DNA of 64,000 nt. Source: Burkholderiaceae bacterium (lineage in GTDB: Bacteria > Pseudomonadota > Gammaproteobacteria > Burkholderiales > Burkholderiaceae_D). The stretch is taken from NCBI GenBank assembly GCA_030158675.1, contig JAOASL010000003.1, positions 1 through 64,000 of the forward strand. The letters are read 5' to 3'. The position numbers and the translations under genes were made by a program. Shown piece after piece: positions 5,634 through 50,755 of this stretch. The number at the start of each line of letters is the position of its first letter. Position 1 is the first letter of the stretch. The notes under the pieces were generated by a model that saw nothing but the letters and a program-made list of their open reading frames with translations, had not been told where the DNA came from and did not search any database.

Positions 5634-5742
5634 TTAAAGCACGGAATTTCCGGGCAAAAAGGCCTATGGCCATCGTTCGGAAGAACTACTACCTTGGCAG
5701 GATGAGGGTGTTCGCATATAGCAAGTGGGGGACAATAGCCAG

Positions 5743-7632: not shown

Positions 7633-7656
7633 CCCCACCCCAAGACAAAGACCGCT

Positions 7657-8328
7657 ATGGCGCCACAAAAAATTCGTCTTCTGGTTGTCGATGACCATAC
7701 GTTGTTTCGTCGCGGGCTGATCGCCCTGCTGTCACAGGATGAGCGCTTTGAAGTTGTCGGTGAGGCCGGCGATGTCAGTGAGGCATTGCGCGTGCTGCCA
7801 TCAACCCGGCCCGATCTGGTCTTGCTCGACAACCATCTGCCGGGCGTGAAAGGCGTCGATGCGATTCCTTCGTTCAAGGAAGGCATGCCCGAGCTGCACG
7901 TGATGATGCTGACTGTCAGCGAGGACGAAGACGACCTGTCGCGCGCGCTGCAGGGCGGCGCTGACGGCTATTTGCTGAAGACGTCCGAATCAGACCAGCT
8001 GTGCGATGCGATCGTGAAGGTCAGCGAAGGCCAGTCCATGATCAGTCAGCAGATGATGGGCAAGCTGGTCGCGGCACTGCGTGGCCAGGGCACGCCGGTA
8101 CGCGTCGCGGAGCAGCCGGCCGGCGCGCAGGCCATCGACAAGTTGTCGCCGCGTGAGAAGGAAATTCTCACGCTGATCGCAAAAGGCCAGAGCAATAAAC
8201 TGATCGCGCGCGAACTCGACATCGCCGAGACCACGGTCAAGATCCATGTGCAGCACATCTTCAAGAAGCTCGACCTGAGCTCGCGCGTGCAGGTGGCGGT
8301 GCTGGCCGCCAGCCTGGGGCTCGGGTAA
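7657..8328 (+). CDS. narL: Response regulator NarL
   Basis: Receiver domain (LLVVDDHTLFRRGL) and LuxR HTH (LSPREKEILTLIAKGQSNKLIARELDIAETTVKIHVQHIFKKLDL). Confidence 0.95.
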   Translation: MAPQKIRLLVVDDHTLFRRGLIALLSQDERFEVVGEAGDVSEALRVLPSTRPDLVLLDNHLPGVKGVDAIPSFKEGMPELHVMMLTVSEDEDDLSRALQGGADGYLLKTSESDQLCDAIVKVSEGQSMISQQMMGKLVAALRGQGTPVRVAEQPAGAQAIDKLSPREKEILTLIAKGQSNKLIARELDIAETTVKIHVQHIFKKLDLSSRVQVAVLAASLGLG

Positions 8329-8593
8329 TCCGGGTCCGCGCATCGGGCTCGCCCGCTAACGGATTCACGCTGGTTCAGCGCAGCCGAATGACTCTGCGCC
8401 TCTGCGCCGCGCAGCCGGCTGCCTCGCCGTTTCTACTTGAGGAATGACCCCCCGGCCTACTTCCCGGCCTACTACCAAAGGATGAGCCGGCCCGCCTGAG
8501 CCTCCTCCTTTTTTCCAGGCCATCTCGTACCGACAGTGGATGTGCAGAAACTTGTTGCCCAACGAAACTACCGCAATGTTTCGAGGGGTAAAC

Positions 8594-9844
8594 ATGGAAA
8601 ACCAATTAGTCGATAGGCGCCACGCTTGGTCTGTGCTGATCGTCAGCACCATGGCGTTCACCGTCTGCTTCATGAGCTGGATGATGTTCGGCGTGATCGG
8701 TATCCCGATTAAAAAAATGCTGGACCTGAACGCCACGCAATTCGGCCTGCTGATGGCGATGCCGGTGCTCAGCGGCTCGCTGGTTCGGGTGCCACTGGGC
8801 CTGATGACTGATCGCTTCGGCGGTCGCGTCGTGCTGGCGGTGCTGATGGCGGTGACCATTCCTGCGGTCTGGATGATCGCCTATGCCACCACCTACTGGC
8901 AGTTCCTCGCAGGCGGTCTGCTGGTCGGTCTGGCCGGCGGCTCCTTCTCAGTCGGCACGCCATATGTCGCCCGCTGGTTCCCGAAAAAGCAGCAGGGAAT
9001 GGCCATGGGCGTCTTCGGTGCCGGCAATTCCGGCGCAGCGGTCAACAAGTTCATCGCTCCTGTGATCGTGGTCGGCCTGGGCTGGGCCATGGTGCCGCAG
9101 GTGTATGCGGCGATCATGGCGGGCGCGCTGATCCTGTTCTGGCTGTTCAGCCATCACAACCCGGCGCATCTGGTGTCGTCGTCGGTGCCGCTGCGCGAGC
9201 AACTGAAGGCACTGAAGAATCCGCAGGTCATCAAGTACTGCCAGTACTACAGCATCGTGTTCGGTGGTTACGTCGGCCTGTCGCTGTGGCTGGTGCAGTA
9301 CTACGTCGGCGAATACCAGCTGGACCTGCGTACGGCAGCACTGCTGGCCGCTTGCTTCTCGCTGCCGGGCGGCCTGTTGCGCGCGATCGGCGGCATCTTG
9401 TCCGACAAGTACGGCGCGCACCAGGTCACCTGGTGGGTCATGTGGGTCAGCTGGGTCTGCCTGTTCCTGCTGTCCTATCCGCAGACCAGCTTCACGGTGC
9501 TGACCGCCAATGGCCCGGCCAGCTTCGACATCGGCCTGAATGTATATGCCTTCACTGCGCTGGTCTTCGTGCTCGGCGTCTGCTGGGCGTTCGGCAAGGC
9601 CAGCGTGTTCAAGTACATCAGCGATGACTATCCGACCAACATCGGCGCCATCAGTGGCGTGGTCGGACTGGCTGGCGGCCTTGGCGGTTTCGTGCTGCCC
9701 ATCCTGTTCGGCGTGCTGATGGATATCACCGGTCTGCGTTCCTCCGCTTTCATGCTGCTGTACGGCGTGGTCTGGGTGTCGCTGATCTGGATGTACCGGA
9801 CCGAAGTCCGCAATACCCAAGTGCTCGGCACACATGCCGCCTGA
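8594..9844 (+). CDS. narK: MFS nitrate/nitrite transporter NarK1 type
   Basis: 12-TM MFS; GNSGAAVNKF nitrate-signature-like motif; start ATGGAAAACC after GAGGGG RBS. Confidence 0.92.
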   Translation: MENQLVDRRHAWSVLIVSTMAFTVCFMSWMMFGVIGIPIKKMLDLNATQFGLLMAMPVLSGSLVRVPLGLMTDRFGGRVVLAVLMAVTIPAVWMIAYATTYWQFLAGGLLVGLAGGSFSVGTPYVARWFPKKQQGMAMGVFGAGNSGAAVNKFIAPVIVVGLGWAMVPQVYAAIMAGALILFWLFSHHNPAHLVSSSVPLREQLKALKNPQVIKYCQYYSIVFGGYVGLSLWLVQYYVGEYQLDLRTAALLAACFSLPGGLLRAIGGILSDKYGAHQVTWWVMWVSWVCLFLLSYPQTSFTVLTANGPASFDIGLNVYAFTALVFVLGVCWAFGKASVFKYISDDYPTNIGAISGVVGLAGGLGGFVLPILFGVLMDITGLRSSAFMLLYGVVWVSLIWMYRTEVRNTQVLGTHAA

Positions 9845-9865
9845 AACTTCTGACGAGTCAATCTC

Positions 9866-11524
9866 ATGCACACTTCCAAGCTCAATTCCGGCATGGCCAC
9901 TGCGGTGCGTGCCGCCGGCGCCGACATCGACGACTGGCGTCCCGAAGACACGGCATTCTGGGAAAGCACCGGTAAGCAGATCGCTTATCGCAATCTGTGG
10001 ATCTCGATTCCGGCGCTGCTGTGCGGTTTCGCGATCTGGGGCATGTGGGGCATCATCACCGTGCAGATGCTGAACCTTGGCTTTCCGTTCACGCAGCCGC
10101 AGTTGTTCTCGCTGACCGCTATCGCCGGACTGGCCGGTGCGACGATGCGCATCCCCGCCTCGTTCCTCGTTCGCCTGTCGGGTGGCCGCAATACCATCTT
10201 CCTGACCACCGCGATGCTGCTCGCGCCGGCGCTGGGTACCGGCATCGTGCTGCAGCATCCGGAATGGCCGCTGTGGTCCTTCCAACTGATGGCCCTCTGG
10301 TCCGGCGTCGGCGGCGGCAATTTCGCCAGTTCAATGTCCAACATCGGCACCTTCTTTCCGAAGCGCCTGCAGGGAACGGCGCTGGGACTGAACGCCGGCC
10401 TCGGCAACTTCGGCGTGACCAGCATGCAGATTGTCATTCCGCTGGTGATGACGATGGGCCTGTTCGGCGCGCTCGGCGGTGAATCGATGACCCTGGTGAA
10501 GGACAGCGGCTGGATCTTCGGCAAGATCGCCGCCGGCACGCCCACCTGGATGCAGAACGCCGGCTTCGCCTGGGTGCTGTCGCTGGTGCCGCTGGCTGTG
10601 ATCTGCTTCTTCGGCATGAACAACCTGAAGACCGTGTCGCCCAGTATCGGTGGCACCATCCCGGCCTTCCTGAAAATCGTCTGGCTGTACACGCTGTCCT
10701 TCGTCCCCGCCGGCATCGGCCTGTACCTGTACCTGCCAACGCCGACCGGCCTGGGTCTGCTGAACATGTGGGTCGTCCTGCCGCTGATCATCGTCAGCAC
10801 GCTGATGGTGATGAAACTGACCGCGTTCGGCACGATGAAAGACCACCTCAGCGCGCAGTTTGCGATTTTCCGCAACAAGCACACCTGGGCGATGACAGCG
10901 CTGTACATCGTCACTTTTGGCTCTTTCATCGGCTTCTCGATGGCGCTGCCGCTGTCGATCACCGTGATCTTCGGCATCAGCCATGTGCCTGATGCGGCCG
11001 GCGTGCTGCAACACACGCTGAAAAACCCGAACGCGCCGTCTGCGCTGACCTATGCATGGATCGGCCCTTTCGTCGGCGCCGCCGTGCGCCCGGTCGGTGG
11101 CTGGATTGCAGACCGCGTCGGCGGCTCGGTGGTCACGCAGGTGATCTCGGCGGTGATGGCGGTCGCGTCGATCGCGGTCGGTTACGTGATGTTGCAGGCG
11201 TATGAATCCGCGACACCGGAAGCGTACTTCCCGGCGTTCATGGGTCTGTTCGTGCTGCTGTTCCTGGCCAGCGGCATCGGCAACGGCTCCACCTTTCGCA
11301 GCATCGCTTTCATCTTCGATCGCCAGCAGGCCGGCCCGGTGCTCGGCTGGACCTCGGCCGTGGCTGCCTATGGCGCCTTCATCGCGCCGGTGGTGATCGG
11401 CGACCAGATCAAGGCTGGCACGCCGCAGATTGCGATGTACGCATTTTCGATTTTCTACGCGCTGTGCCTGCTGTTGAACTGGTGGTTCTACCTGCGCGGC
11501 GGCGCGGAAATAAAAAATCCATAA
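9866..11524 (+). CDS. narK2: MFS nitrate/nitrite transporter NarK2 type
   Basis: MFS with GLNAGLGNFGVTSMQ nitrate signature; tandem with narK1. Confidence 0.92.
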   Translation: MHTSKLNSGMATAVRAAGADIDDWRPEDTAFWESTGKQIAYRNLWISIPALLCGFAIWGMWGIITVQMLNLGFPFTQPQLFSLTAIAGLAGATMRIPASFLVRLSGGRNTIFLTTAMLLAPALGTGIVLQHPEWPLWSFQLMALWSGVGGGNFASSMSNIGTFFPKRLQGTALGLNAGLGNFGVTSMQIVIPLVMTMGLFGALGGESMTLVKDSGWIFGKIAAGTPTWMQNAGFAWVLSLVPLAVICFFGMNNLKTVSPSIGGTIPAFLKIVWLYTLSFVPAGIGLYLYLPTPTGLGLLNMWVVLPLIIVSTLMVMKLTAFGTMKDHLSAQFAIFRNKHTWAMTALYIVTFGSFIGFSMALPLSITVIFGISHVPDAAGVLQHTLKNPNAPSALTYAWIGPFVGAAVRPVGGWIADRVGGSVVTQVISAVMAVASIAVGYVMLQAYESATPEAYFPAFMGLFVLLFLASGIGNGSTFRSIAFIFDRQQAGPVLGWTSAVAAYGAFIAPVVIGDQIKAGTPQIAMYAFSIFYALCLLLNWWFYLRGGAEIKNP

Positions 11525-11602
11525 AGACATAAAGAACAAAAGAAAGACTGAACTTCGCTGTCACCGCCGGCGCAATGCACCGGCACCCGAATGGAGAAAC
11601 AC

Positions 11603-14600
11603 ATGAGCCACACGCTCGACAGACTGACCTATTTCACCCGGCCGCGCGAGAGCTTCTCCGGCGGCCATGGCCAGACCACCGGCGAGGACCGCACCTGGGA
11701 AGACGCCTATCGTAATCGCTGGTCGCATGACAAGATCGTGCGCAGCACGCACGGCGTGAACTGCACCGGCTCCTGCTCATGGAAGATCTATGTGAAGGGC
11801 GGCATCGTCACTTGGGAGACGCAGCAGACCGACTATCCGCGCACCCGTGCCGACCTGCCGAACCATGAGCCGCGTGGCTGTGCGCGCGGCGCGTCTTACT
11901 CGTGGTACTTGTACAGCGCCAATCGCGTGAAGTACCCGATGATTCGCGCGCGCCTGCTGAAGCACTGGCGTGCCGCGCTGGCGACCGCGAAGTCGCCGGT
12001 CGATGCGTGGGCCAACATCGTCGAGAACGCCGACGCGCGCGCCGAATGGCAGAAGCAGCGCGGCTTGGGCGGTTTCGTGCGCAGCAACTGGGAAGAAGTG
12101 AACCAGCTGATCGCCAGCGCCAACGTTTATACGATCAAGAAATATGGCGCCGACCGCATCATCGGCTTTTCGCCGATTCCGGCAATGTCGATGATCAGCT
12201 ACGCGGCGGGCAGTCGCTATCTGTCGCTGATCGGCGGCGTCTGCATGAGCTTCTATGACTGGTACTGCGACTTGCCGCCGGCGTCGCCGCAGGTGTGGGG
12301 CGAGCAGACCGACGTGCCCGAGTCGGCCGACTGGTACAACTCGACCTACCTGATCGCCTGGGGCTCGAACGTGCCGCAGACTCGCACACCGGACGCGCAC
12401 TTCTTCACCGAAGTCCGTTACAAGGGCGCCAAGACCGTCGCGATCACGCCCGACTATTCGGAAGTGGCGAAGCTGGCCGACCTGTGGATGCATCCGAAGC
12501 AGGGCACTGATGCGGCCGTCGCGATGGCGATGGGCCATGTGATTCTGAAGGAATTTTATTTCGACAAGCGCAGCGCGTACTTTGATGACTATGTGCGCCG
12601 TTACACCGACATGCCGAACCTGGTGCGGCTGGAAGAACGCACCCTGGCCGACGGCCGCAAGGTGATGGTGCCCGGCCAGTACCTGCGCGCCAGCGATTTC
12701 AACGGCAAGCTCGGCCAGGACAATAATCCCGAATGGAAGACCGTCGCGCTCGACCAGCACGACAAGGTGGTGCTGCCAAACGGCTCGATCGGTTTCCGCT
12801 GGGGTGCGGAACAGCGTGCCGACCTCGGCAAGTGGAACCTCGAGGACAAGGAAGCGCGCCACGGCGACGCCGTGAAGCTGAAGCTGTCGCTGATGGAAGG
12901 CGAAGGCAGTGCCTATGAAGTCGGCGAAGTCGCGTTCCCGTACTTCGGCGGCGTGGAATCGCCCGGTTTCGATGCCAACCCACAAGGGCAGGCACAAGAT
13001 GGCGTGCTGGTGCGCAAAGTTCCGGTGCGGCGCATTCGCCTCGGCAAGCAGGGCGACGAGCGTTATGCGCTGGTGGCTACCGTGTTTGACCTGACGGCGG
13101 CGAACTATGGCGTCGCACGCGGGCTGCCCGGCGAGAATCCGGCCGCCAGCTATGACGACGATACGCCGTATACGCCGGCCTGGCAGGAGAAGATCACCGG
13201 GGTCAAGCGTGACCAGGTGATTGCGGTTGCGCGTCAGTTTGCCGACAACGCCGACAAGACCCGCGGCAAGTCGATGGTGATTATCGGCGCGGCGATGAAC
13301 CACTGGTACCACTGCGACATGAATTACCGCGGCATCATCAACATGCTGATGATGTGCGGCTGTATCGGCCAGAGCGGCGGCGGCTGGGCGCATTACGTCG
13401 GTCAGGAAAAGCTGCGCCCGCAAACCGGCTGGACCGCACTGGCGTTTGCGCTCGACTGGGTACGTCCGCCGCGTCAGCAGAACAGCACCAGCTTCTTCTA
13501 CGCGCACACTGACCAGTGGCGTTACGAAAAACTCGGCGTCGAAGAGATCCTGTCACCGCTGGCTGACAAGGCCAGGTTCGGCGGCAGCCTGATCGATTAC
13601 AACGTGCGCGCCGAGCGCATGGGCTGGCTGCCGTCCGCGCCGCAGCTGCAGACCCATCCGATGCAGGTGGTGCGCGATGCGCAGGACGCCGGCATCGATC
13701 CGAAGGACTACGCAGTCAAGGCGCTGAAGGATGGCTCACTGAAGATGAGCTGCGAAGACCCGGATAATCCGCTGAACTGGCCGCGCAATATGTTTGTCTG
13801 GCGTTCCAACATCCTCGGCTCCAGCGGCAAGGGCCATGAGTATTTCCTCAAGCATCTGCTCGGCACCACGCACGGCGTGCAGGGCAAGGACCTCGGCGAC
13901 GACGACGCCAGACCGGCTGAAGTGACATGGCATCACGAGGCGCCCGAAGGCAAGCTCGACCTGCTGGTCACACTGGATTTCCGCATGAGCACCACCTGCC
14001 TGTACTCGGACATCGTGCTGCCGACCGCCACCTGGTATGAGAAGAACGATCTTAATACCAGCGACATGCATCCGTTCATCCATCCGCTGTCGACTGCGGT
14101 CGATCCGGCATGGCAGGCGAAGAGCGACTGGGAAATTTATAAAGGTTTTGCACAAGCCTTCAGCACAGTCTGCGTCGGCCACCTCGGCGTCGAGAAGGAA
14201 TTGATGCTGACGCCGCTGATGCATGACACCCCGGCCGAGCTGGCGCAGCCGTTCGGCGTGGCCGAATGGAAGAAGGGCGAATGTGACCTGATCCCGGGCA
14301 AGACCGCGCCACAAATGACGGTGGTCGAGCGCGACTATCCGAACACTTATCAGCGTTTCACCGCTCTCGGTCCGCTGCTGGCCAAGGCTGGCAACGGTGG
14401 CAAGGGCATCGGCTGGAACACGGTCGATGAAGTGCATCAGCTGGCTGAACTGAACGGCAAGGTGCATGCGGAAGGCGTGACCCAGGGCATGCCGAAAATC
14501 GAGACTGACATCGACGCCTGCGAAGTGGTGCTGCAACTGGCGCCGGAAACCAATGGCCATGTGGCAGTCAAGGCCTGGGAGGCGCTCGGCAAGCAGACCG

Positions 14601-15397
14601 GTCGTGACCATACGCACCTCGCACTGCATCGCGAGGACGAGAAGATCCGCTTCCGCGATATTCAGGCGCAGCCGCGCAAGATCATTTCGTCACCGACCTG
14701 GTCGGGTCTGGAGAGCGAGAAGGTGTCGTACAACGCCGGCTATACCAACGTGCATGAATTTATCCCCTGGCGCACGCTGACTGGCCGTCAACAGTTCTAT
14801 CTCGACCATCCGTGGATGGCCGCGTTTGGCGAAGGTTTCTCGAGCTATCGCCCGCCGGTGGACCTGAAGACAGTCAACGAAATGATCGATCGCAAGCCGA
14901 ATGGCCACACCGAGATCTCGCTGAATTTCATCACGCCGCACCAGAAGTGGGGCATTCACAGCACCTACAGCGACAACCTGCACATGCTGACGCTGAACCG
15001 CGGCGGTCCGGTGATCTGGCTGTCCGAGGATGACGCGAAGAGCGCCGGCATTGTCGACAACGACTGGGTCGAACTGTTCAATACGAACGGTGCGATCGCG
15101 GCGCGCGCGGTGGTCAGCCAGCGCGTGAAGAACGGCATGGTGATGATGTATCACGCGCAGGAAAAGACCATCAACACGCCGGGCTCGGAGATCACGAACA
15201 CACGCGGCGGCATCCACAACTCGGTGACGCGCATCGTCACCAAGCCCACGCACATGATCGGCGGCTACGCGCAGTTCAGCTATGGCTTCAACTATTACGG
15301 AACGATCGGCACCAATCGCGATGAGTTCGTCATCGTGCGCAAGATGCGCAAGATCGACTGGTTGGACGGTGAATCCGCCGCCACCGTGCAGGCCTGA
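11603..15397 (+). CDS. narG: Respiratory nitrate reductase alpha subunit
   Basis: GVNCTGSCSWKIYVKGGIVTWETQQTDYP Fe-S/Mo-bisMGD N-terminus; full-length about 1264 aa; GGAGAAAC RBS before MSHTLD. Confidence 0.98.
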   Translation: MSHTLDRLTYFTRPRESFSGGHGQTTGEDRTWEDAYRNRWSHDKIVRSTHGVNCTGSCSWKIYVKGGIVTWETQQTDYPRTRADLPNHEPRGCARGASYSWYLYSANRVKYPMIRARLLKHWRAALATAKSPVDAWANIVENADARAEWQKQRGLGGFVRSNWEEVNQLIASANVYTIKKYGADRIIGFSPIPAMSMISYAAGSRYLSLIGGVCMSFYDWYCDLPPASPQVWGEQTDVPESADWYNSTYLIAWGSNVPQTRTPDAHFFTEVRYKGAKTVAITPDYSEVAKLADLWMHPKQGTDAAVAMAMGHVILKEFYFDKRSAYFDDYVRRYTDMPNLVRLEERTLADGRKVMVPGQYLRASDFNGKLGQDNNPEWKTVALDQHDKVVLPNGSIGFRWGAEQRADLGKWNLEDKEARHGDAVKLKLSLMEGEGSAYEVGEVAFPYFGGVESPGFDANPQGQAQDGVLVRKVPVRRIRLGKQGDERYALVATVFDLTAANYGVARGLPGENPAASYDDDTPYTPAWQEKITGVKRDQVIAVARQFADNADKTRGKSMVIIGAAMNHWYHCDMNYRGIINMLMMCGCIGQSGGGWAHYVGQEKLRPQTGWTALAFALDWVRPPRQQNSTSFFYAHTDQWRYEKLGVEEILSPLADKARFGGSLIDYNVRAERMGWLPSAPQLQTHPMQVVRDAQDAGIDPKDYAVKALKDGSLKMSCEDPDNPLNWPRNMFVWRSNILGSSGKGHEYFLKHLLGTTHGVQGKDLGDDDARPAEVTWHHEAPEGKLDLLVTLDFRMSTTCLYSDIVLPTATWYEKNDLNTSDMHPFIHPLSTAVDPAWQAKSDWEIYKGFAQAFSTVCVGHLGVEKELMLTPLMHDTPAELAQPFGVAEWKKGECDLIPGKTAPQMTVVERDYPNTYQRFTALGPLLAKAGNGGKGIGWNTVDEVHQLAELNGKVHAEGVTQGMPKIETDIDACEVVLQLAPETNGHVAVKAWEALGKQTGRDHTHLALHREDEKIRFRDIQAQPRKIISSPTWSGLESEKVSYNAGYTNVHEFIPWRTLTGRQQFYLDHPWMAAFGEGFSSYRPPVDLKTVNEMIDRKPNGHTEISLNFITPHQKWGIHSTYSDNLHMLTLNRGGPVIWLSEDDAKSAGIVDNDWVELFNTNGAIAARAVVSQRVKNGMVMMYHAQEKTINTPGSEITNTRGGIHNSVTRIVTKPTHMIGGYAQFSYGFNYYGTIGTNRDEFVIVRKMRKIDWLDGESAATVQA

Positions 15398-15438
15398 CGC
15401 ATCGGCAGCAATACAGCAGAAATACAGGAGAGATACCC

Positions 15439-16971
15439 ATGAAAGTTCGCGCACAGATCGGTATGGTGCTGAACCTTGACAAGTGCATCGGCTGCCATAC
15501 CTGCTCGGTCACTTGCAAAAACGTCTGGACCAGTCGTCCCGGCGTTGAATACGCGTGGTTCAACAACGTTGAAACCAAGCCCGGCATCGGCTACCCGAAG
15601 GACTGGGAGAATCAGGATCGCTGGAACGGCGGCTGGATTCGCAAGTCCGACGGCAGCATCGTGCCCAAGCAGGGCGGCAAGTGGAAGCTGTTGATGAACA
15701 TCTTCGCCAACCCGAACCTGCCGCAGATTGACGACTACTACGAGCCGTTTACCTTCGACTATGAACACCTGCAGGGTGCGCCGGAATCGAAGGCCGCGCC
15801 GACTGCGCGTCCGCGCAGCCTGATCACCGGCAAGCGCATGGAGAAGATCGAATGGGGCCCGAACTGGGAAGAGATCCTCGGTGGCGAATTTTCCAAGCGC
15901 AGCAAGGACCAGAACCTGGCGAACTTCGAGCAGGTGCAGAAGGACATGGTCGGCCAGTTCGAGAACACCTTCATGATGTACCTGCCGCGCCTGTGCGAGC
16001 ACTGCCTGAACCCGGCCTGCGTCGCCTCCTGTCCGTCCGGTTCGATCTACAAGCGCGAGGACGATGGCATCGTGCTGATCGATCAGGACAAGTGCCGCGG
16101 CTGGCGCATGTGCGTGTCGGCTTGCCCGTACAAGAAGATTTATTACAACTGGCAGAGCGGCAAGGCCGAGAAGTGCGTGTTCTGCTATCCGCGCATTGAG
16201 GCCGGCCAGCCGACTGTTTGCTCGGAAACTTGCGTCGGACGTATCCGCTATCTCGGCGTGGTGCTGTATGACGCCGACCGCATCGCCGAAGCCGCCAGCA
16301 CCGAAAACGAGAAAGACCTGTATCAGGCCCAGCTCGACATCTTCCTCGACCCGAACGATCCGAAGGTGATCGAGCAGGCGCGCAAGGACGGCATCCCCGA
16401 GTCGTGGCTGGAAGGCGCGCGCAAGAGCCCGGTGTACAAGATGGCGATTGACTGGAAGGTCGCGCTGCCGCTGCATCCGGAATACCGCACGCTGCCGATG
16501 GTCTGGTATGTGCCGCCGCTGTCGCCGATCACAGCCGCCGCGAACGCCGGCCATGTCGGCGCCAATGGCGAATTGCCCGACATCGCGCAGATGCGCATTC
16601 CGGTCCAGTATCTCGCGAATCTGCTGACGGCCGGCGACACCGCGCCGGTGACGCGTGCGCTTGAGCGGATGCTGGCGATGCGCGCATTCCAGCGCGGCCG
16701 CCATGTCGATGGCATTGAAAACCACGCGGTGCTGGAACAGACCGGCCTGACCGTCGCCGAAGTCGAAGAGATGTATCAGGTGATGGCGATCGCGAATTAT
16801 GAAGACCGTTTCGTGATCCCCAGCTCGCACCGCGAGTACGCAGAAAATGCGTTCGACCTGCGTGGCGGTTGCGGCTTCTCGTTCGGCAATGGCTGCTCCG
16901 ATGGCCAGTCCGACGCCAGCCTGTTCGGCACGCAGAAGCGCCGCACCATCCCGATCCAGTCCGCCGTCTGA
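15439..16971 (+). CDS. narH: Respiratory nitrate reductase beta subunit
   Basis: CIGCHTCSVTCKNVWT, CEHCLNPACVASCPSGSIYKREDDGIVLIDQDKCRGWRMCVSACPYKK. Confidence 0.98.
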   Translation: MKVRAQIGMVLNLDKCIGCHTCSVTCKNVWTSRPGVEYAWFNNVETKPGIGYPKDWENQDRWNGGWIRKSDGSIVPKQGGKWKLLMNIFANPNLPQIDDYYEPFTFDYEHLQGAPESKAAPTARPRSLITGKRMEKIEWGPNWEEILGGEFSKRSKDQNLANFEQVQKDMVGQFENTFMMYLPRLCEHCLNPACVASCPSGSIYKREDDGIVLIDQDKCRGWRMCVSACPYKKIYYNWQSGKAEKCVFCYPRIEAGQPTVCSETCVGRIRYLGVVLYDADRIAEAASTENEKDLYQAQLDIFLDPNDPKVIEQARKDGIPESWLEGARKSPVYKMAIDWKVALPLHPEYRTLPMVWYVPPLSPITAAANAGHVGANGELPDIAQMRIPVQYLANLLTAGDTAPVTRALERMLAMRAFQRGRHVDGIENHAVLEQTGLTVAEVEEMYQVMAIANYEDRFVIPSSHREYAENAFDLRGGCGFSFGNGCSDGQSDASLFGTQKRRTIPIQSAV

Positions 16972-16982
16972 AGGAGCCACGA

Positions 16983-17657
16983 ATGACACACAATCGCTAT
17001 ACCTTGCGCTCGCTGGCCCGGCTGCTAGCCTATCCTGATGCGGCGATGCGGGCCGGGCTCGGCGACCTGCCGTCCGCAGTCGATGAAGAGGCCGCGCTGC
17101 CGGCCGCGCGCCGCGCCGAACTGAAGGCACTGATTCAGGAGCTGCTGCGCCTTGATCAAATCGAGGCCGAGTCGCGCTACGTTGAAACCTTCGACCGTGG
17201 CCGCGCGACTTCGCTGCACCTGTTCGAGCATGTGCACGGCGATTCTCGCGACCGCGGCCCGGCCATGGTCGACCTGACGCAGACCTACGAAAAGGCCGGC
17301 CTGCTGATGGCGCCGGAAGAGTTGCCGGATCATCTGTGCGTGGTGCTGGAGTTCGCGTCGACACAGCCGCCGGCGATCGCCACGGCGTTTCTCGGCGAGC
17401 TCGCGCACATTCTGAATACGGTGTTCAGTGCGTTGCTCAAGCGCGAGAGCCCGTACGCATCGGTGCTGGCGGCCGTACTCGAACTGGCCGGCGAGACCGC
17501 GCAGGCGGTACCGTTCACCGCCGACGAAGCGCTCGACGACAGCTGGCAGGAGCCGGAGCCGTTTGATGGCTGCAGCTCGCGAGGCCAGTCGCGTCCCGGA
17601 CAGCCGCAGCCGATCCACATCGTCCGCAAACCTACTTCTCCGGGAGCTCAGGCATGA
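16983..17657 (+). CDS. narJ: Nitrate reductase molybdenum cofactor assembly chaperone
   Basis: YRLSRLLAYP-like start (TLRSLARLLAYPDAAM), DSRDRGPAMVDL motif; AAGGAG RBS; overlaps narI by ATGA. Confidence 0.95.
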   Translation: MTHNRYTLRSLARLLAYPDAAMRAGLGDLPSAVDEEAALPAARRAELKALIQELLRLDQIEAESRYVETFDRGRATSLHLFEHVHGDSRDRGPAMVDLTQTYEKAGLLMAPEELPDHLCVVLEFASTQPPAIATAFLGELAHILNTVFSALLKRESPYASVLAAVLELAGETAQAVPFTADEALDDSWQEPEPFDGCSSRGQSRPGQPQPIHIVRKPTSPGAQA

Positions 17658-18376
17658 ACGGCCTCGACCATTTCCTGTTCGGTATTTACCCGTACATCGC
17701 GCTGTCGGTTTTCCTGCTCGGCAGCCTGATCCGCTTTGATCGCGACCAGTACAGCTGGAAGAGCGATTCGTCGCAACTGCTGCGCGCCGGTCAGCTGCGC
17801 TGGGGCAGCAACCTGTTTCACCTCGGCGTACTGTTCCTGTTCTTTGGCCATAGCGTCGGCATGCTGACGCCGCACTTTCTGTACGAGCGCTTCATATCGG
17901 CCGGTGACAAGCAGCTTATGGCGATGGTGTCTGGCGGCGTGTTCGGCGTACTGGGCTTCATCGGCGTCACGATCCTGCTGCATCGCCGCCTGGTGGATGA
18001 GCGCATCCGCGCCACCTCGAAGACCACGGACATCGTGCTGCTGGCGCTGCTGTGGCTGCAGTTCGCGCTTGGCCTCGGCACCATTCCGTTGTCTGCACAA
18101 CATCTGGACGGCGGCATGATGCTGAAGCTGGCCGAGTGGGCGCAGCGCATCGTCACCTTCCGGGGCGGTGCGGTGGAATTACTGGAAGAAGCCAGCTGGG
18201 TGTTCAAGACCCACATGTTCCTCGGCATGAGCATCTTCTTCATTTTTCCGTTCACCCGTCTGGTGCATGTGTGGAGCGGCTTCGGCACGCTGGCCTATGT
18301 GGTTCGTCCGTACCAGCTGGTGCGCAGCCGTCGCCTCGGCATGAGCCCGCGCGCGTCGGCCAGCCGTCGCGGCTGA
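17654..18376 (+). CDS. narI: Respiratory nitrate reductase gamma subunit (cytochrome b)
   Basis: FLFGIYPYIALSVFLLGSLIRFDRDQYSWKSDSSQLL... Confidence 0.97.
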   Translation: MNGLDHFLFGIYPYIALSVFLLGSLIRFDRDQYSWKSDSSQLLRAGQLRWGSNLFHLGVLFLFFGHSVGMLTPHFLYERFISAGDKQLMAMVSGGVFGVLGFIGVTILLHRRLVDERIRATSKTTDIVLLALLWLQFALGLGTIPLSAQHLDGGMMLKLAEWAQRIVTFRGGAVELLEEASWVFKTHMFLGMSIFFIFPFTRLVHVWSGFGTLAYVVRPYQLVRSRRLGMSPRASASRRG

Positions 18377-18399
18377 ATCTATCTGACCAGGAGAAAAGC

Positions 18400-19263
18400 A
18401 TGAACACGACTGAAACCGGTTGCGGCGGTGGCTGCACGTGCGGCAGCGCTGCCAGTCAGGCAAGGACCGCACCGGTCGCGCAAGCGCTGGCTGCACCTGT
18501 GCCGACCATTAACGGCATCGCACTGCACGCCGAAGGTGCATTTCACGATAACGAGGCATTGCATGAGCTGGCCTGTGCCGAGCTGCTGCGCCAGCGCGCA
18601 GTCGAGCTGGGCTACCTGCCGGTGATGGATGCCACGATTGCGCCGGAGCTGGACGAAGCTGCGAAGCAATCGATTGATGCGATGCTGGACGCTGAGGTGC
18701 CGGCGAAGGATCCGACCGGGGATGAATGCCGCCGTCATTACGATGCGAACCTGGCGCAGTTTCGCGTCGGCCAGTCGCTGAAGGTGCGGCATATCCTGTT
18801 TGCGGTCACTTCCGGCGTCGATGTGCAAAAGTTGATCCGGCGCGCCGAGGATGCGCTGCTGGCGCTGTCGGCAAAGGCTGTGCCTGCCGACCGTTTCGCG
18901 CAGCTGGCGGCCGAGCTGTCGAACTGTCCGTCGGGCGCCCACGGTGGCGAGCTGGGCTGGATCACGCCGCAGGATCTGTCGCCGGAACTGGCAAAGGAAT
19001 TGTTTTTCAAGCCCGAGACCGGCATGGCCTGCGGTCTGCAGACGCGGCTGATTCACAGCCGGTTCGGGCTGCACATCATTGACGTGACCGCGCAGCAGCC
19101 GGGGCGCCTGCCGGCACTCGACGAGGTAAGCGAGCAGATCGCCCGCCGCCTCACGCTGCGCTCGCGCGCAACCGCGCTCGGGCAGTACATGCGTCTGCTG
19201 GCCGGTGCGGCCGACGTGGCAGGCATTGAACTTGCGTCTGAGGCTTCGCTCTTGGTTCAGTAA
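18400..19263 (+). CDS. Parvulin-type peptidylprolyl isomerase, nar-associated
   Basis: VRHILFAV...SGAHGGELGWITPQDLSPELAKELF...IHSRFGLHIIDV rotamase domain; N-terminal GCGGGCTCGS Cys motif. Confidence 0.88.
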   Translation: MNTTETGCGGGCTCGSAASQARTAPVAQALAAPVPTINGIALHAEGAFHDNEALHELACAELLRQRAVELGYLPVMDATIAPELDEAAKQSIDAMLDAEVPAKDPTGDECRRHYDANLAQFRVGQSLKVRHILFAVTSGVDVQKLIRRAEDALLALSAKAVPADRFAQLAAELSNCPSGAHGGELGWITPQDLSPELAKELFFKPETGMACGLQTRLIHSRFGLHIIDVTAQQPGRLPALDEVSEQIARRLTLRSRATALGQYMRLLAGAADVAGIELASEASLLVQ

Positions 19264-43297: not shown

Positions 43298-44053
43298 TCA
43301 GGCTTTGCGAGTCGTGCGGCGCGGCGCGGCCTTTTTGGCGGCGGCAGTCCTGGCCGGAGCCTTGGCAGGGACTTTCCTTGCGGTCGATGGCTTTGCGGCG
43401 GTTTTTGCAGCCGTCTTTGAAGCCGTCTTTGAAGCAGTTTTTGAGGTTGTTTTTGAGGCTGTCCGGGTCGGTGTCTTGGATGCCGCCTTCTTTGCGGCAG
43501 TCCTTGAAGTACCCGCCGTCGCGGTCTTTGTTGCCGTACGGGTGGCCGGAGCCTTGTCTGCCGGCGTCTTTCTGGCCGGGGCTTTCCTGGCCGCCGTTTT
43601 CACTGCGCCTGTTTTCGTTGCGACAGCCTTTTTTGCCACGACCTTTTTCTCCGGTGCGCTCGGCTTGCTGTCCGCTTTTGCACTGGTCTTGCGTGCGCTG
43701 GTGGCGCGCTTGGCTGTAGCCAGGCTGACTTCCTTGTCGCCCCAGATTTCTTCGAGACGATAGTAGGCGCGGATCGCGGGCTGCATGATGTGCACCACCA
43801 TGTCGCCGAGGTCGACCAGCACCCATTCACCGGTGCCTTCGCCTTCCATCTTCACGTGCTGGCCGCCCGCTTCCTTGAATTTGTCGCGTACCGACGCGGC
43901 CAGCGCCTTGGTCTGGCGGTTCGAGGTGCCGGATGCGATGGCGATCCGGTCGAACATGCTGGTCAGATGGGTGGTGTCATAGACGCGGATGTCCTGCGCC
44001 TTGACGTCTTCGAGCGCATCGATGACGAGAGCCTGTAGTTTTTTGATGTCCAT
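43298..44053 (-). CDS. rsfS: Ribosomal silencing factor RsfS with long Lys/Ala-rich C-terminal extension
   Basis: Core MDIKKLQALVIDALEDVKAQDIRVYDTTHLTSMFDRIAIASGTSNRQTKALA...GEWVLVDLGDMVVHIMQPAIRAYYRLEEIWG, then about 130 aa of KTA/KTASKT-type sequence. Confidence 0.93.
   Translation of the reverse strand: MDIKKLQALVIDALEDVKAQDIRVYDTTHLTSMFDRIAIASGTSNRQTKALAASVRDKFKEAGGQHVKMEGEGTGEWVLVDLGDMVVHIMQPAIRAYYRLEEIWGDKEVSLATAKRATSARKTSAKADSKPSAPEKKVVAKKAVATKTGAVKTAARKAPARKTPADKAPATRTATKTATAGTSRTAAKKAASKTPTRTASKTTSKTASKTASKTAAKTAAKPSTARKVPAKAPARTAAAKKAAPRRTTRKA
43301..43702 (-). repeat. Low-complexity repeat-coding segment for the RsfS tail
   Basis: Imperfect reiterated codons for KTASKTASKTAAKTAAK; DNA gtctttgaagccgtctttgaagcagtttttgaggttg around 43410-43450. 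Confidence 0.75.
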
Positions 44054-45634: not shown

Positions 45635-45938
45635 GGGGTAAACGTAATTAAGTCGACTTGCGGATTGTACCGTACCGATGCCGAGCGACTGAGCGTTCAT
45701 CAGACCCCCGAATGCCCGCCGTCGTCTGGGATTCAAGGGGTATCGCGTTTTCCCCCACACAGCGCAGAACCAATCGATCTTTGAGCGAACATTTCGTTGC
45801 AAATTTTTTACATATTTCCCGGGAATTTCAAAAACGACAACCCGTCTGACATCGCCTGCCTTAGAGTCACGCCGGATGCGCGACCTGCAAAAGTCTGATG
45901 GGCTACGACGCACCGAAAAACCAAGACAGGAAGAAGGA

Positions 45939-47096
45939 ATGCAAGCCAGTCGGATTTTCATTCAGCCGCCCAGTTCAGTTGAACATGTCGGCGCAAATCA
46001 GCGCCGATCTGGCGAATATCTTGCACGGATTGAGTCGCTCTTGAATGAAGCGCCTGATCTGGCGGCACGCTTTCATGCACTGTCAGCGCAAGGGAAGCGC
46101 ATCCGGAGTTCGGAGTATCACCTGACGAACGCTTGCAATATTCGTTGCGACGGATGCTGGTTCTTCGCGCATGGCCACGACAAGGAAACACGAGAGGAAA
46201 CTGACCTTAATTCCCTGGCCAGATTTATCGATGGCGAGGCGCGCGATCGCGGCATCAATGCGGCGCTGGTGATCGGCGGCGAGCCCACACTTTTTCCTGA
46301 CAGGCTCAGTGTCATTATCGATCGCATGGAGCATGTCACGATCTCGAGCAACGGGATGAAAAAATTACCCGTCAAGGGATTCGAGCGAGTGGCCATTGGC
46401 ATCACGTTGTTTGGCGGCGGCGCACAGGATGATCAGTTGAGAGGCATACGCCCGGACGGACGGCGCATTTCCGGTCTGTTCGAGCAAGCGCTTGAGAATT
46501 ACCACCAGGATCCTCGGGCCGGATTTGTGTATGCATTGACGCTTGACGGCATCGAACATATCGAAGAGACCGTAAAGCGCATTCAGCGGAACGGTAACCT
46601 GGTTACCTTCAACCATTATTACCGTTCAGGTGCCGACGTCACTGTGGATCCCGACGCCACACACGCACTGTTGGCTGAGGCGCTGCGAGTGAAGTCGCTG
46701 TATGCAGACACAGTGATCAGTCATCCCGAATTTATAACGACGATGTTGACGGGAAAATCACAGTGCGGCGAATTCGGTTACTGGAATTGCCCCAGTATCA
46801 GCGTCGACCATCCCGCACACAAGACCCGCCTGGGCAATGGAAATCCGGTACTGCCACGCTTTAATACCTGGTCCGCCGACTGCAAGACACTAAAGTTCTG
46901 CTGCACTTCCGGACACTGTGAAGGGTGTCGAGATTCCCAGGCAATTTACAGCTGGCTGCTGGTCAGTGGATCGCAATTCCTCGAAAGCCATGAATCGCTA
47001 CTGACCTGGATTGAGGTCGCGGAAAGCTATTGGCGTCAATTCATTTGGTCGCCCTATCACCGATACAACCTGACGGAGAATGCGACATGTCGCTGA
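45939..47096 (+). CDS. Radical SAM protein with C-terminal Cys cluster, unknown function
   Basis: [11 protein letters not shown] (CX3CX2C); GGEPTLF; C-terminal [32 protein letters not shown] before ATG. Confidence 0.88.
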
Positions 47097-47812
47097 ATAC
47101 TGGTGCGGTAGCCACGCCGGCAGATTATTTCAAAATGCCGGCTGAATATCAGGAATTAGTCATGCACCAGCTGCGGCAGCATGTCGAAGGCGAGCTGATC
47201 GGCGCATCCGACTATCTTGAAATTTTTTATCCCCTGGCGCCCGACGTCTTTGAAAAGAAAGTCTGCTGCCAGCGAGCCCTGGAAGAAATCGATCATTTCA
47301 TGCTGGGTGCCGCGGTGCTGGCAGACATCGGCTTCGATGCGACATATATGCTGGGCCAAACGATCTCCGATCGTAAATATTACAAGACTGAGGGCGTCAC
47401 GGTCGTCGATACATGGCTGAAACGTGGCATGTTTTCCTTTATTGGAGAAGCCGTCGTCCTGTCGATTCTCGAGGAGATGGCGGCCAGCAGTTATGTACGC
47501 ATTGCCGAGATGACGCGCCAGGTCATCATTGATGAACATGTTCATGTGGCGCATGGGCGCCGGATTGTTGAGTCATGTATTCGTGAGCATGGCGCGGTTG
47601 CCGTGCAGCCGGAATTCGAAATCGCGTGGGCGATGTCACTGGACCTGTTCGGAAAATCAGATTCCGTCCGCTCTGATAAATACGTCGAATGGGGGTTGCG
47701 AACATATACAAACAGCGACGCGCGAAGACGGTTCATTGAAAGGATGGCACCCCAACTTGAGGCCATGGGATTGCATATTCCGGAAGCCGGCAAGCTGAGG
47801 AAATTCCTGTGA
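47087..47812 (+). CDS. Ferritin-like diiron protein (A)
   Basis: Helical protein with ordered ligand motifs GELIGASDY...ALEEIDHF (ExxH)...IGEAVVLSILEE...IIDEHVHVAHG (ExxH); overlaps the radical SAM gene by 10 nt. Confidence 0.75.
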   Translation: MSLNTGAVATPADYFKMPAEYQELVMHQLRQHVEGELIGASDYLEIFYPLAPDVFEKKVCCQRALEEIDHFMLGAAVLADIGFDATYMLGQTISDRKYYKTEGVTVVDTWLKRGMFSFIGEAVVLSILEEMAASSYVRIAEMTRQVIIDEHVHVAHGRRIVESCIREHGAVAVQPEFEIAWAMSLDLFGKSDSVRSDKYVEWGLRTYTNSDARRRFIERMAPQLEAMGLHIPEAGKLRKFL

Positions 47813-48918
47813 AAAACTTCGAAGATACTCGCCAGAGCGACGCGACACAGACCGTGAAGAATGATGCTTCATTTGTTTCATTCGACGGTAGCTTTGATGA
47901 CCGGCTCACCGGTGATTATTTTGCCTCAGCGGGAAGGAGCTTTACCGGAACGATTGCAGCGACGCATCGACATTTCTGGAATCCGGAGGACAGCCGCTAT
48001 ATCGACTTCTCTATTCCGTTCGACGTGGAGCGCTCGCCGATCATGCCGTTCAGTACGGTCCCAGAGCTATGTAGTGATTTACGAAACGAATTGTCGGAAC
48101 GCCAGCAAGTGGCATTTGCGAATGACAGCCTGCACTGGTGGTTGTCGGGATTCCTTTTCGGGGAACAGGGCGCGCTGTGGTTGTCGCTATCGCTGGCCGA
48201 TATGCTTGGTAATCCGGACGGAGTCGAATATGTGGTCAACCAGGCGCGAGAAGAAGCGCGCCATGTAGCTGCATTCACACGCTATATTGAGACGCGCTGG
48301 GGACCTCCGCTGCCAGTGGCCCCCGCATTCAGGCAGTTACTTGGCCGGATCGTGAATTCAGACACTATTCACAGGAAGTTGATCGGCATGCAGATCCTGG
48401 TTGAAGGTCTGGCGATGGGTTTCATGGCGTCCCTCTATAACAAGGCGGCGGATCCCGTGTTGGTGCGTCTCGCGCAGCTGGTGATGACGGACGAGACTTT
48501 TCATCACAAGGCCGGGCATTTATGGGCTGAAAATGATCTTCCCCGTCTGTCTGCGGCTGAGCGTGCGGATGCAGAAGACTGGGCGCTTGAATGCTTTCAG
48601 GCGCTGATGTTCAATGTTTTCAATCCGTCACAGAAAACGGCGCTTTACGAAAAATACGGCTGGGACACTGAGTATGTCAGGCAGAAGATTCGTGCCTATT
48701 ACACGGAAGAAGTGCGGAAGCAGGAGCTTTCGGAGCAGGCTGGCGTTTTCAGGATCCTTGCACGCACCCTGATTCGCTCGGGCATCGTCACTGAGCGCAC
48801 CCGTCCTGTGTATGCACAGTGGCTCGACCTCGATTCCCTTGCGGAAGATGACACGAATTCCGTCGAAGCGTCGATCGCCCGACAAGGATTGGAACTGATT
48901 GCCTCGATCAATTGCTGA
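47809..48918 (+). CDS. Ferritin-like diiron oxygenase/oxidase-like protein (B)
   Basis: FGEQGALW...AREEARHVAAF (EEARH)...VEGLAMGF...MTDETFHHKAGH; GTGA overlap with the upstream gene. Confidence 0.78.
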   Translation: MKNFEDTRQSDATQTVKNDASFVSFDGSFDDRLTGDYFASAGRSFTGTIAATHRHFWNPEDSRYIDFSIPFDVERSPIMPFSTVPELCSDLRNELSERQQVAFANDSLHWWLSGFLFGEQGALWLSLSLADMLGNPDGVEYVVNQAREEARHVAAFTRYIETRWGPPLPVAPAFRQLLGRIVNSDTIHRKLIGMQILVEGLAMGFMASLYNKAADPVLVRLAQLVMTDETFHHKAGHLWAENDLPRLSAAERADAEDWALECFQALMFNVFNPSQKTALYEKYGWDTEYVRQKIRAYYTEEVRKQELSEQAGVFRILARTLIRSGIVTERTRPVYAQWLDLDSLAEDDTNSVEASIARQGLELIASINC

Positions 48919-48934
48919 CCCGGAAAATTCGACT

Positions 48935-49420
48935 ATGTTGGATGAAGCATCCTGTGCTCAGCCACCCGGTTGCGGGTTTGTCGAGTTCCCGTCCTTAAGT
49001 CCCTATGTCGCGCTGAACGGTCCGGTCTATGCGCGCGTCGGAGAGAACGACCAGCTTGAGCTGGGGTTTGTGGTCCAGCAAAAAAACACGAACTTGAATG
49101 GCTGCTGCCATGGCGCAGTGCTGTTCTCGCTGCTGGACTCTGTGATGGGGGCAAGTATCCTCTATCGGCTGGAGCCGGAATACAGTGTCGCGACGCTCAA
49201 TTTGTCATCTAATTTCCTCGGGGTTGCCCGAGTAGGCGAGTGGCTTGTAGGCAGGGCGGCCATCGATGGCTGCAGCAAGTCTCATTTTTTCGCATCGGGA
49301 TCCCTGTCGGGATCCGGCGGCATCGTGGCTACAGCCACGGGTACATTTTCCAAGATCCGCAGCAAGGCGCCTGTTGCCAATTTTCGGGAGCTGGTCAAAG
49401 GCCTTTTGCAATCTGCATGA
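48935..49420 (+). CDS. Hotdog-fold thioesterase (PaaI-like)
   Basis: NTNLNGCCHGAVLFSLLDSVMGASILYRLEPEYSVATLNLSSNFLGVARVGEWLVGRA. Confidence 0.82.
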   Translation: MLDEASCAQPPGCGFVEFPSLSPYVALNGPVYARVGENDQLELGFVVQQKNTNLNGCCHGAVLFSLLDSVMGASILYRLEPEYSVATLNLSSNFLGVARVGEWLVGRAAIDGCSKSHFFASGSLSGSGGIVATATGTFSKIRSKAPVANFRELVKGLLQSA

Positions 49421-49520
49421 AGTTGCGCACGATTTGGCTCGCATCGCAAAAATCCGCTGGGACATCGGCTATCAGCCGCCGGCCGTGTCCAGTAGCTGCT
49501 CATTTCCACCTGAACTAATC

Positions 49521-50687
49521 ATGCCCACAGAACTTTCCCGACGAGCCCGGAAGCTGACCTCGTCCGTGATTCGCGAAATCCTCAAGGTGACCGCGTCTCC
49601 GGATGTGATTTCATTCGCCGGTGGTATTCCCGCGCCGGAAACTTTTCCGGTGGACTTGCTGCACACCGCATGCGAGCAGATTTTTGCTGAGGAAGCGCGC
49701 GAAGCGCTGCAGTATTCCCTCACGGAGGGTTTTCTGCCGTTACGGCAGTGGATAGCCAGCCGGCACTCGGCCGATGTCGATCAGGTGCTGATCACTACGG
49801 GTTCCCAGCAGGCGCTCGATTTGCTTGCCAAGGCGCTGCTCGATCCCGGGGTCACGGTGCTGGTCGAGTCGCCGACCTATCTTGGCGCGCTGCAGGCCTT
49901 TTCGCTGTTTGAGCCCAGCTTCAGGGAGTTGCCATGCGACGACGCCGGCATTTGCACCGCGGAGCTCACGCCTGCTGATGCAGCCGATGCGAGGCTGGCC
50001 TATCTAATGCCGAACTTCCAGAATCCGACAGGCCGACTGATGTCAGCTGAGCGGCGGCATGATGTCTGCCGGTTGATGGGCGACGCAGGTGTGCTGATTG
50101 TCGAGGATGATCCCTATGGTGAATTAGGCTTTAACGGACAGCGCTTGCAAAGCCTGCGTTCCATTCATCCCGAAGGTGTTGCTTACCTTGGCTCGTTTTC
50201 CAAGGTGCTTGCTCCCGGGTTGCGGGTCGGGTATGTGGTTGCTCCGGCCTGGCTGACCGCCAAGCTGACGCAATTGAAGCAGGCGGCTGACTTGCATAGT
50301 TCGACCTTCGATCAGCGGCTTGCATACCGGGTGCTGGCCAGCGGCGCGTTGCCGGCGCAGATCGACACCATTCGCAAGCTCTACGCGTCGCGATGCGACG
50401 CCATGCTGCAAGCACTGCAGGCCTCAATGGCTGCGGAGGTCCGATGGAATCGCCCTGAAGGCGGTATGTTCATTTGGCTGAACCTGCCACCTCAATGCGA
50501 CAGTCATCTGCTGCTGCAGAAGTCGATTGCTGTCGCGCAGTCAACACGGGTAGCCTTCGTTCCCGGCGCACCTTTCCATGCAGTCGCACCACGTTCGGAT
50601 TGTCTGAGGCTGTCGTTCGTGACGGTCGACGCCGAGCGCATTCGCATCGGCATTTGTCAGCTGGCGGAGAACATCCGAACCATGTGA
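49521..50687 (+). CDS. PLP-dependent aminotransferase class I/II (2-aminoadipate/LysN-like fold type I)
   Basis: VISFAGGIPAPETFP, ITTGSQQALDLLAKAL, PNFQNPTGRLMS, VEDDPYGELGF, GSFSKVLAPGLRVGYVVAP. Confidence 0.93.
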   Translation: MPTELSRRARKLTSSVIREILKVTASPDVISFAGGIPAPETFPVDLLHTACEQIFAEEAREALQYSLTEGFLPLRQWIASRHSADVDQVLITTGSQQALDLLAKALLDPGVTVLVESPTYLGALQAFSLFEPSFRELPCDDAGICTAELTPADAADARLAYLMPNFQNPTGRLMSAERRHDVCRLMGDAGVLIVEDDPYGELGFNGQRLQSLRSIHPEGVAYLGSFSKVLAPGLRVGYVVAPAWLTAKLTQLKQAADLHSSTFDQRLAYRVLASGALPAQIDTIRKLYASRCDAMLQALQASMAAEVRWNRPEGGMFIWLNLPPQCDSHLLLQKSIAVAQSTRVAFVPGAPFHAVAPRSDCLRLSFVTVDAERIRIGICQLAENIRTM

Positions 50688-50724
50688 ACCGACCCTGGGA
50701 GATAGGCTGCTTCCCCGGGCCGGT
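50688..50724. terminator. Imperfect GC-rich hairpin between convergent aminotransferase and purD
   Basis: ACCGACCCTGGGA / TCCCCGGGCCGGT (11 of 13 paired) followed by GCATAAAAATTATGC. Confidence 0.4.
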
Positions 50725-50755
50725 CAGGCATAAAAATTATGCGATTTGTATCGGA

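Follow-up and report, generated by a model that had tools for sequence, protein, structure and literature searches.

A candidate biosynthetic cassette in a Burkholderiaceae bacterium combines a portable PaaA-like diiron, radical SAM and hotdog core with a second diiron protein and an aminotransferase

Several described enzyme systems resemble parts of a five-gene cassette at positions 45939-50687 of a 64,000-nucleotide (nt) stretch of DNA from the Burkholderiaceae bacterium GCA_030158675.1 (contig JAOASL010000003.1, positions 1-64,000, forward strand; the whole stretch is called the window here). Phenylacetyl-coenzyme A (CoA) epoxidase, PaaABCDE, is like the cassette in that one cassette protein aligns with PaaA over its full length and keeps the ligand positions, and in that a PaaI-like hotdog protein is present, but the PaaA-like gene of the window has no PaaB, C, D or E beside it and is always paired with a radical S-adenosylmethionine (SAM) enzyme. 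SPASM/twitch enzymes such as SkfB, anSME and SpeY share with this enzyme the radical SAM core and a C-terminal auxiliary-cluster Cys motif, although the window enzyme has fewer C-terminal Cys and matches their fold over the core only. AurF/CmlI, R2lox and aldehyde-deformylating oxygenase (ADO) share a ferritin-like four-helix fold and a set of six diiron ligands with a second diiron protein of the cassette, which differs from AurF in the absence of an extra His and scores below every curated family. In dihydroxyphenylglycine-type pathways, oxidation and hydrolysis of a thioester are followed by an aminotransferase, the same logic of release and then transamination of a 2-oxo acid; the enzymes are different throughout, however, and the cassette has no polyketide synthase (PKS). 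Finally, an apparently uncharacterised cluster of Burkholderia stagnalis holds PaaA-like, radical SAM, PaaI thioesterase and related aminotransferase genes in one region, as the window does, but adds an adenylation domain, carrier proteins, a chlorinating enzyme and a type II thioesterase.

The cassette consists of five intact open reading frames (ORFs) in a row on the + strand, with junctions, in order, of a 10-nt overlap, a GTGA overlap, a 16-nt gap and a 100-nt gap, exactly the layout given in an initial annotation made from the letters alone:

45939-47096, + strand, radical SAM enzyme, core gene (PF04055, Cys conservation, structural model)
47087-47812, + strand, PaaA-family diiron protein, core gene (PF05138, PaaA structure profile match, alignment with the genome's own PaaA)
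47809-48918, + strand, ferritin-like diiron protein with a GTG start (conserved ligands, AurF/CmlI/R2lox-like fold; no family above cut-off)
48935-49420, + strand, putative PaaI-like hotdog-fold thioesterase (PF03061)
49521-50687, + strand, pyridoxal phosphate (PLP)-dependent class I/II aminotransferase (PF00155, homologues beside the core elsewhere)

On balance, we favour the view that these genes form a small biosynthetic (tailoring) operon, at the heart of which is a portable core: PaaA-like diiron oxygenase, radical SAM enzyme and hotdog thioester enzyme. The core was most apparent from the distribution of the radical SAM gene. Strong relatives were found in 3 of the 195 genomes of a family-level sample, the window's own genome included, and no further ones in class, order and phylum samples (369, 398 and 399 genomes), which are a small fraction of the genomes on record and overlap in part between searches; the class sample held distant kin only, at 29-34% identity. 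Close relatives (48-62% identical) occurred in Cupriavidus (two loci), Solimicrobium, an Oxalobacteraceae isolate, Roseateles, Trinickia, B. stagnalis, Tistrella, Streptomyces and Alteromonas, which together with the window and a congener, G157, make twelve lineages. In all twelve, a PaaA-like gene adjoined the radical SAM gene or sat one gene away. Pairwise distances for the two proteins were strongly correlated (r = 0.935), and their largely congruent trees agreed on the well-supported groups. These comparisons show co-inheritance of the radical SAM gene and the PaaA-like gene.

A hotdog-fold gene lay near the core in 11 of the 12 lineages, and these genes were non-orthologous: one type is common to the window and G157, a second occurs in the Burkholderiales clade, the Streptomyces gene is of the FadM/YbgC type and that of Alteromonas is of the MaoC type (as named in the annotation of the public record). 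Hotdog enzymes have been drawn from at least three unrelated groups (PaaI-like, FadM/YbgC-like and MaoC). That folds which handle thioesters were recruited repeatedly is the strongest sign we have of a thioester substrate. The initial annotation had left the choice between an amino or keto acid and an acyl thioester; the acyl thioester now appears most likely. The other two genes were less constant. A related aminotransferase gene was present in six lineages, counting B. stagnalis, where it is about 11 kb off and on the opposite strand, and the second diiron gene in three. The five genes, initially described as one unit, do recur together in G157, but the conserved unit is the triad of PaaA-like, radical SAM and hotdog genes, to which the second diiron gene and the aminotransferase are optional additions. 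We conclude that the core is older than the five-gene set and that it is mobile.

Mobility was seen directly in plasmids of Alteromonas, where the PaaA-like, radical SAM and MaoC genes are enclosed in a 7,751-bp Tn3-family element with a transposase, a resolvase and 36-bp terminal inverted repeats that have one mismatch. The element is flanked by the target-site repeat AACAG in one Alteromonas plasmid and TATATA in another, and was present, whole or interrupted, in about eleven Alteromonas plasmid records. The same element, 99.9% identical, was found with the target-site repeat AAACA in pVIM-Exn692, a clinical IncC plasmid of Enterobacter hormaechei, where an IS21-type element splits the transposase. 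Loci with the element, over the two kinds of plasmid, are L026:14582-22332, L025, L065 (NZ_OR497351.1) and L066. In four records the sequences part company precisely at the terminal repeat on the right. The ends of the element are intact, and the triad moves as transposon cargo. No near-identity match to the triad was found in 5,426 Escherichia coli genomes. Since the remaining cargo is a 90-residue response-regulator-like ORF and a 50-residue ORF, the triad is the sole metabolic cargo, and three genes therefore appear to be sufficient for whatever is selected. Sufficiency in unrelated hosts makes it probable that the core acts on a common metabolite, and carriage of the radical SAM/diiron pair as the only metabolic cargo suggests that the cassette probably makes or modifies a small molecule.

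The PaaA-like protein clearly matched PF05138 (PaaA_PaaC, 55.5 bits), and a profile of 13 homologues matched PaaA structures (3pvr) at an expect value (E) of 4.9e-27. It is 22.8% identical to the genome's own PaaA, and its predicted ligands E36, E67/H70, E121 and E150/H153 correspond to those of that protein, so that the full diiron set of a PaaA-type fold appears to be kept. It is not a bona fide PaaA, given a score of 63.1 bits against an equivalog cut-off of 280, the low identity and the absence of PaaB/C/D/E from the cassette. A complete paa operon, including the PaaE reductase, lies elsewhere in the same genome, and an electron donor for the PaaA-like enzyme could therefore exist; that PaaE could serve it is our inference. 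The hotdog protein scored 32.7 bits against PF03061 (4HBT; cut-off 20.6) and is a putative PaaI-like thioesterase. The aminotransferase (PF00155, Aminotran_1_2, 105.3 bits against a cut-off of 19.7) is a MocR-type catalytic domain without the DNA-binding domain, and its homologues adjoin the core in Oxalobacteraceae BJB404, Cupriavidus and Roseateles. These assignments, like that of the radical SAM enzyme, agree with the families first proposed, as judged by Pfam and NCBIfam.

The neighbours of the core in other genomes bear on what the triad may do. On a plasmid of B. stagnalis (L024:2898-17097), a type II thioesterase gene (PF00975, 144 bits) precedes the PaaA-like gene. Opposite the latter are genes for a SyrB2-type chlorinating enzyme (TIGR01762, 470 bits), an acyl-homoserine lactone (AHL) synthase, an adenylation protein and two carrier proteins. 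The adenylation-domain code, DAFWLGGTFK, which resembles valine codes on a by-eye reading of an alignment, is a lead only. The initial annotation had argued from the absence of carrier proteins, and indeed neither a carrier protein nor a nonribosomal peptide synthetase (NRPS) or PKS was found between hemF and purD in the window or in the G157 block. That argument does not generalise, because carrier proteins adjoin the triad in B. stagnalis, together with the adenylation domain, the halogenase and the type II thioesterase. More distant radical SAM kin (23-27% identical; L027:6380-15172, L038 with L039, and L040) were neighboured by an acyl carrier protein/TauD/NRPS set in Methylomagnum, by an MBOAT/AlgJ-like pair and by a ketosynthase, the last two contexts read by eye. 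This suggests a wider acyl-thioester-linked family.

Other contexts can be read differently. An AraC regulator lies close to the core in five of the twelve lineages, an adenosine monophosphate (AMP)-ligase is near it in Trinickia, a Rieske oxygenase, a MaoC protein and an ATP-binding cassette (ABC) efflux set in Tistrella, and a MaoC protein in Cupriavidus. The AMP-ligase and the MaoC proteins are, like the B. stagnalis neighbours, linked to thioesters and so also speak for the biosynthetic reading. The regulator, the AMP-ligase, the Rieske oxygenase with MaoC in Tistrella, and the plasmid and transposon carriage would all suit a catabolic or detoxifying module, in which the triad removes an environmental or stress-derived acyl or aryl thioester and its carriage on a transposon helps the host to survive or feed. 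We regard this as unlikely, though as the alternative to be taken most seriously: no ring-cleavage or beta-oxidation set accompanies the triad, it would be unusual for aerobic catabolism to employ a radical SAM enzyme, and in B. stagnalis the triad adjoins a LuxI/halogenase/NRPS-like cluster.

The position of the cassette in its own genus was informative about its history. It lies between hemF on the left and purD on the right, both on the minus strand, with these gaps at its edges:

45641-45938, no strand, intergenic gap to the divergent hemF, left edge of the insertion
50688-50755, no strand, 68-nt gap to the convergent purD, right edge of the insertion

No sigma-70-like site was found on the + strand of the left gap, and promoter and terminator scans gave chance-level results. 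The GC content of the five genes is 0.53-0.60, compared with about 0.62 in the neighbourhood. In 14 sampled congeners no gene separates purD from hemF. G157 carries all five cassette genes beside purD, in unchanged order and at 62-69% identity (its contig stops before hemF, so that our view there covers the purD side), and the GC content of this cassette is 0.36-0.51 against about 0.57 in the flanking part of the contig. Another congener, G952, has the aminotransferase alone between hemF and purD (L031, L046), and no remnants of the other four genes were detected in that gap. The adjacency of hemF and purD in 14 congeners, the lone aminotransferase in G952 and the low GC content of the G157 cassette together mark the block as an accessory insertion. 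The aminotransferase as a native neighbour of purD later joined by four genes was rejected as the general state, since the 14 congeners have neither.

Among the genomes sampled, the complete five-gene set was found in two, the window's and G157. Between these, nonsynonymous divergence (pN) was 0.20-0.26 and synonymous divergence (pS) 0.78-0.95, which is saturated; synonymous divergence (dS) for purD was 1.42. The comparison indicates that the cassette is under strong purifying selection. Synonymous divergence of the cassette that is saturated and above that of purD may mean that cassettes reached this site twice independently, or that a single early arrival was followed by uneven losses. Conservation of genes and order under purifying selection shows that the five-gene block is not a chance assembly, and with the core pair present in all twelve lineages it bears out the prediction of a functional cassette that co-occurs in other genomes. 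It also makes it very unlikely that the five genes serve no single pathway, the triad being one unit and the other two genes having been caught beside it at an insertion hotspot. The lone aminotransferase at the G952 site would fit such trapping, as would the 100-nt separation and higher GC content of the window's aminotransferase, but the aminotransferase also recurs beside the core in other lineages.

The second diiron protein matched no curated family above cut-off in Pfam and NCBIfam. Its ligands E119, E149/H152, E199 and E229/H232 were invariant in nine homologues, and its model (predicted local distance difference test, pLDDT, 75) resembled R2lox, CmlI and AurF, with the best template modelling (TM) scores to AurF (0.54) and CmlI (0.48). 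The pattern E...ExxH...E...ExxH and the modelled R2/AurF-like four-helix bundle are those expected of a ferritin-like diiron carboxylate protein, as initially proposed. Two further genomes from the same bacterial order have orthologues, 46-47% identical, that stand alone, with no radical SAM core (L033:7441-8550 and L034:9177-10310). The likeness of the model to AurF and CmlI, together with a weak AurF profile match, could be taken to mean that this protein is an N-oxygenase that converts an amine from the aminotransferase into an oxime or nitro compound. This too is highly improbable: the AurF score is 12.7 bits, far below the Pfam cut-off of 29.6, R2lox and ADO match better by sequence profile, and V225 is invariant where AurF has its extra His, a ligand that we take to lie four residues before the Glu of the last ExxH. 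Membership of the AurF-type N-oxygenases was rejected on the score and the Val.

The radical SAM enzyme scored 29.6 bits against PF04055, barely above the cut-off of 29.5, and reached the cut-off of no NCBIfam model. Its cluster motif, C66-x3-C70-x2-C73, was invariant in 16 sequences, and a GGEP motif is present. The C-terminal Cys motif comprises C284, C321, C322, C327 and C330, of which C321, C327 and C330 were invariant across the 16 sequences, distant kin included, and C284 and C322 were confined to the close clade. This motif would suit one auxiliary iron-sulphur cluster. The family is SPASM/twitch-like but falls outside the SPASM subfamily, with about five C-terminal Cys where seven are required for two auxiliary clusters. 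In the structural model (pLDDT 80, predicted TM score 0.83) the nearest folds were SkfB and anSME, with which it shares only the core, since the TM score was only about 0.44. A prokaryotic viperin, an antiviral enzyme, was rejected at 32.2 bits against an equivalog cut-off of 180, the PADLOC pVip match (31.7 bits) covering the generic core region only. Maturation of a peptide or protein, in which the radical SAM enzyme modifies a precursor of a ribosomally synthesised and post-translationally modified peptide (RiPP) or a protein and the diiron enzymes finish it, draws on the top matches to SkfB (profile E 1.4e-12) and anSME, but we give it the least credence of all, as the likeness is limited to the core barrel, the full SPASM Cys set is absent, no precursor gene was seen on by-eye inspection of the loci, and the hotdog enzyme would have no obvious role.

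For the biosynthetic operon that we favour, a chemical course can be proposed. The substrate would be a small acyl group held as a thioester on CoA or on a carrier protein. The PaaA-like enzyme would oxidise this thioester with O2, with electrons probably supplied by a housekeeping reductase such as PaaE, and the radical SAM enzyme, through hydrogen abstraction by the 5'-deoxyadenosyl radical, would rearrange, desaturate or cross-link the oxidised intermediate. The hotdog enzyme would hydrolyse the thioester. In the genus of the window, the second diiron oxidase may add one more oxidation, and the aminotransferase may act first or last, interconverting a 2-oxo acid and an amino acid. Several points weigh against this reading. 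The substrate, product and activities are predicted from genes alone. It is awkward that an enzyme dependent on O2 should be paired with a radical SAM enzyme sensitive to it, and PaaA normally requires PaaC and further partners, which the cassette lacks. Solimicrobium has no neighbouring hotdog gene, the link of the B. stagnalis triad to its cluster is one of adjacency, and small catabolic or detoxifying units could look alike.

The initial statement that no characterised cluster has this composition still stands, in that none was matched among curated families or the literature searched; full-text searches of mainly open-access literature yielded no paper that describes these genes together. 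Two further observations concern other parts of the window. At 43298-44053 (minus strand), the C-terminal tail of an RsfS-like ribosome silencing factor is unusually long (about 140 residues), rich in Lys and Ala, and histone-H1-like. At 5725-19263 (+ strand), genes for a two-component regulator and two NarK-like transporters and narGHJI-like nitrate reductase genes form a single run, followed by one for a parvulin-type protein.

It is unusual for a radical SAM enzyme to be found always beside a diiron enzyme that activates O2, and this pair is inherited as a unit across Actinomycetota and Alpha-, Beta- and Gammaproteobacteria. We suggest, tentatively, that the pair is a new two-metalloenzyme machine that turns a common acyl thioester into a small molecule by O2-dependent oxidation coupled to radical rearrangement, and that the three-gene trait is worth enough to its hosts for a transposon to have carried it out of marine Alteromonas and into an IncC plasmid of an enterobacterium. 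The transposon form is a minimal three-gene system that is directly testable, and the five-gene form shows the core elaborated with a further oxidase and an aminotransferase. If the proposed chemistry is true, the triad would be a compact, portable route to a small-molecule metabolite.

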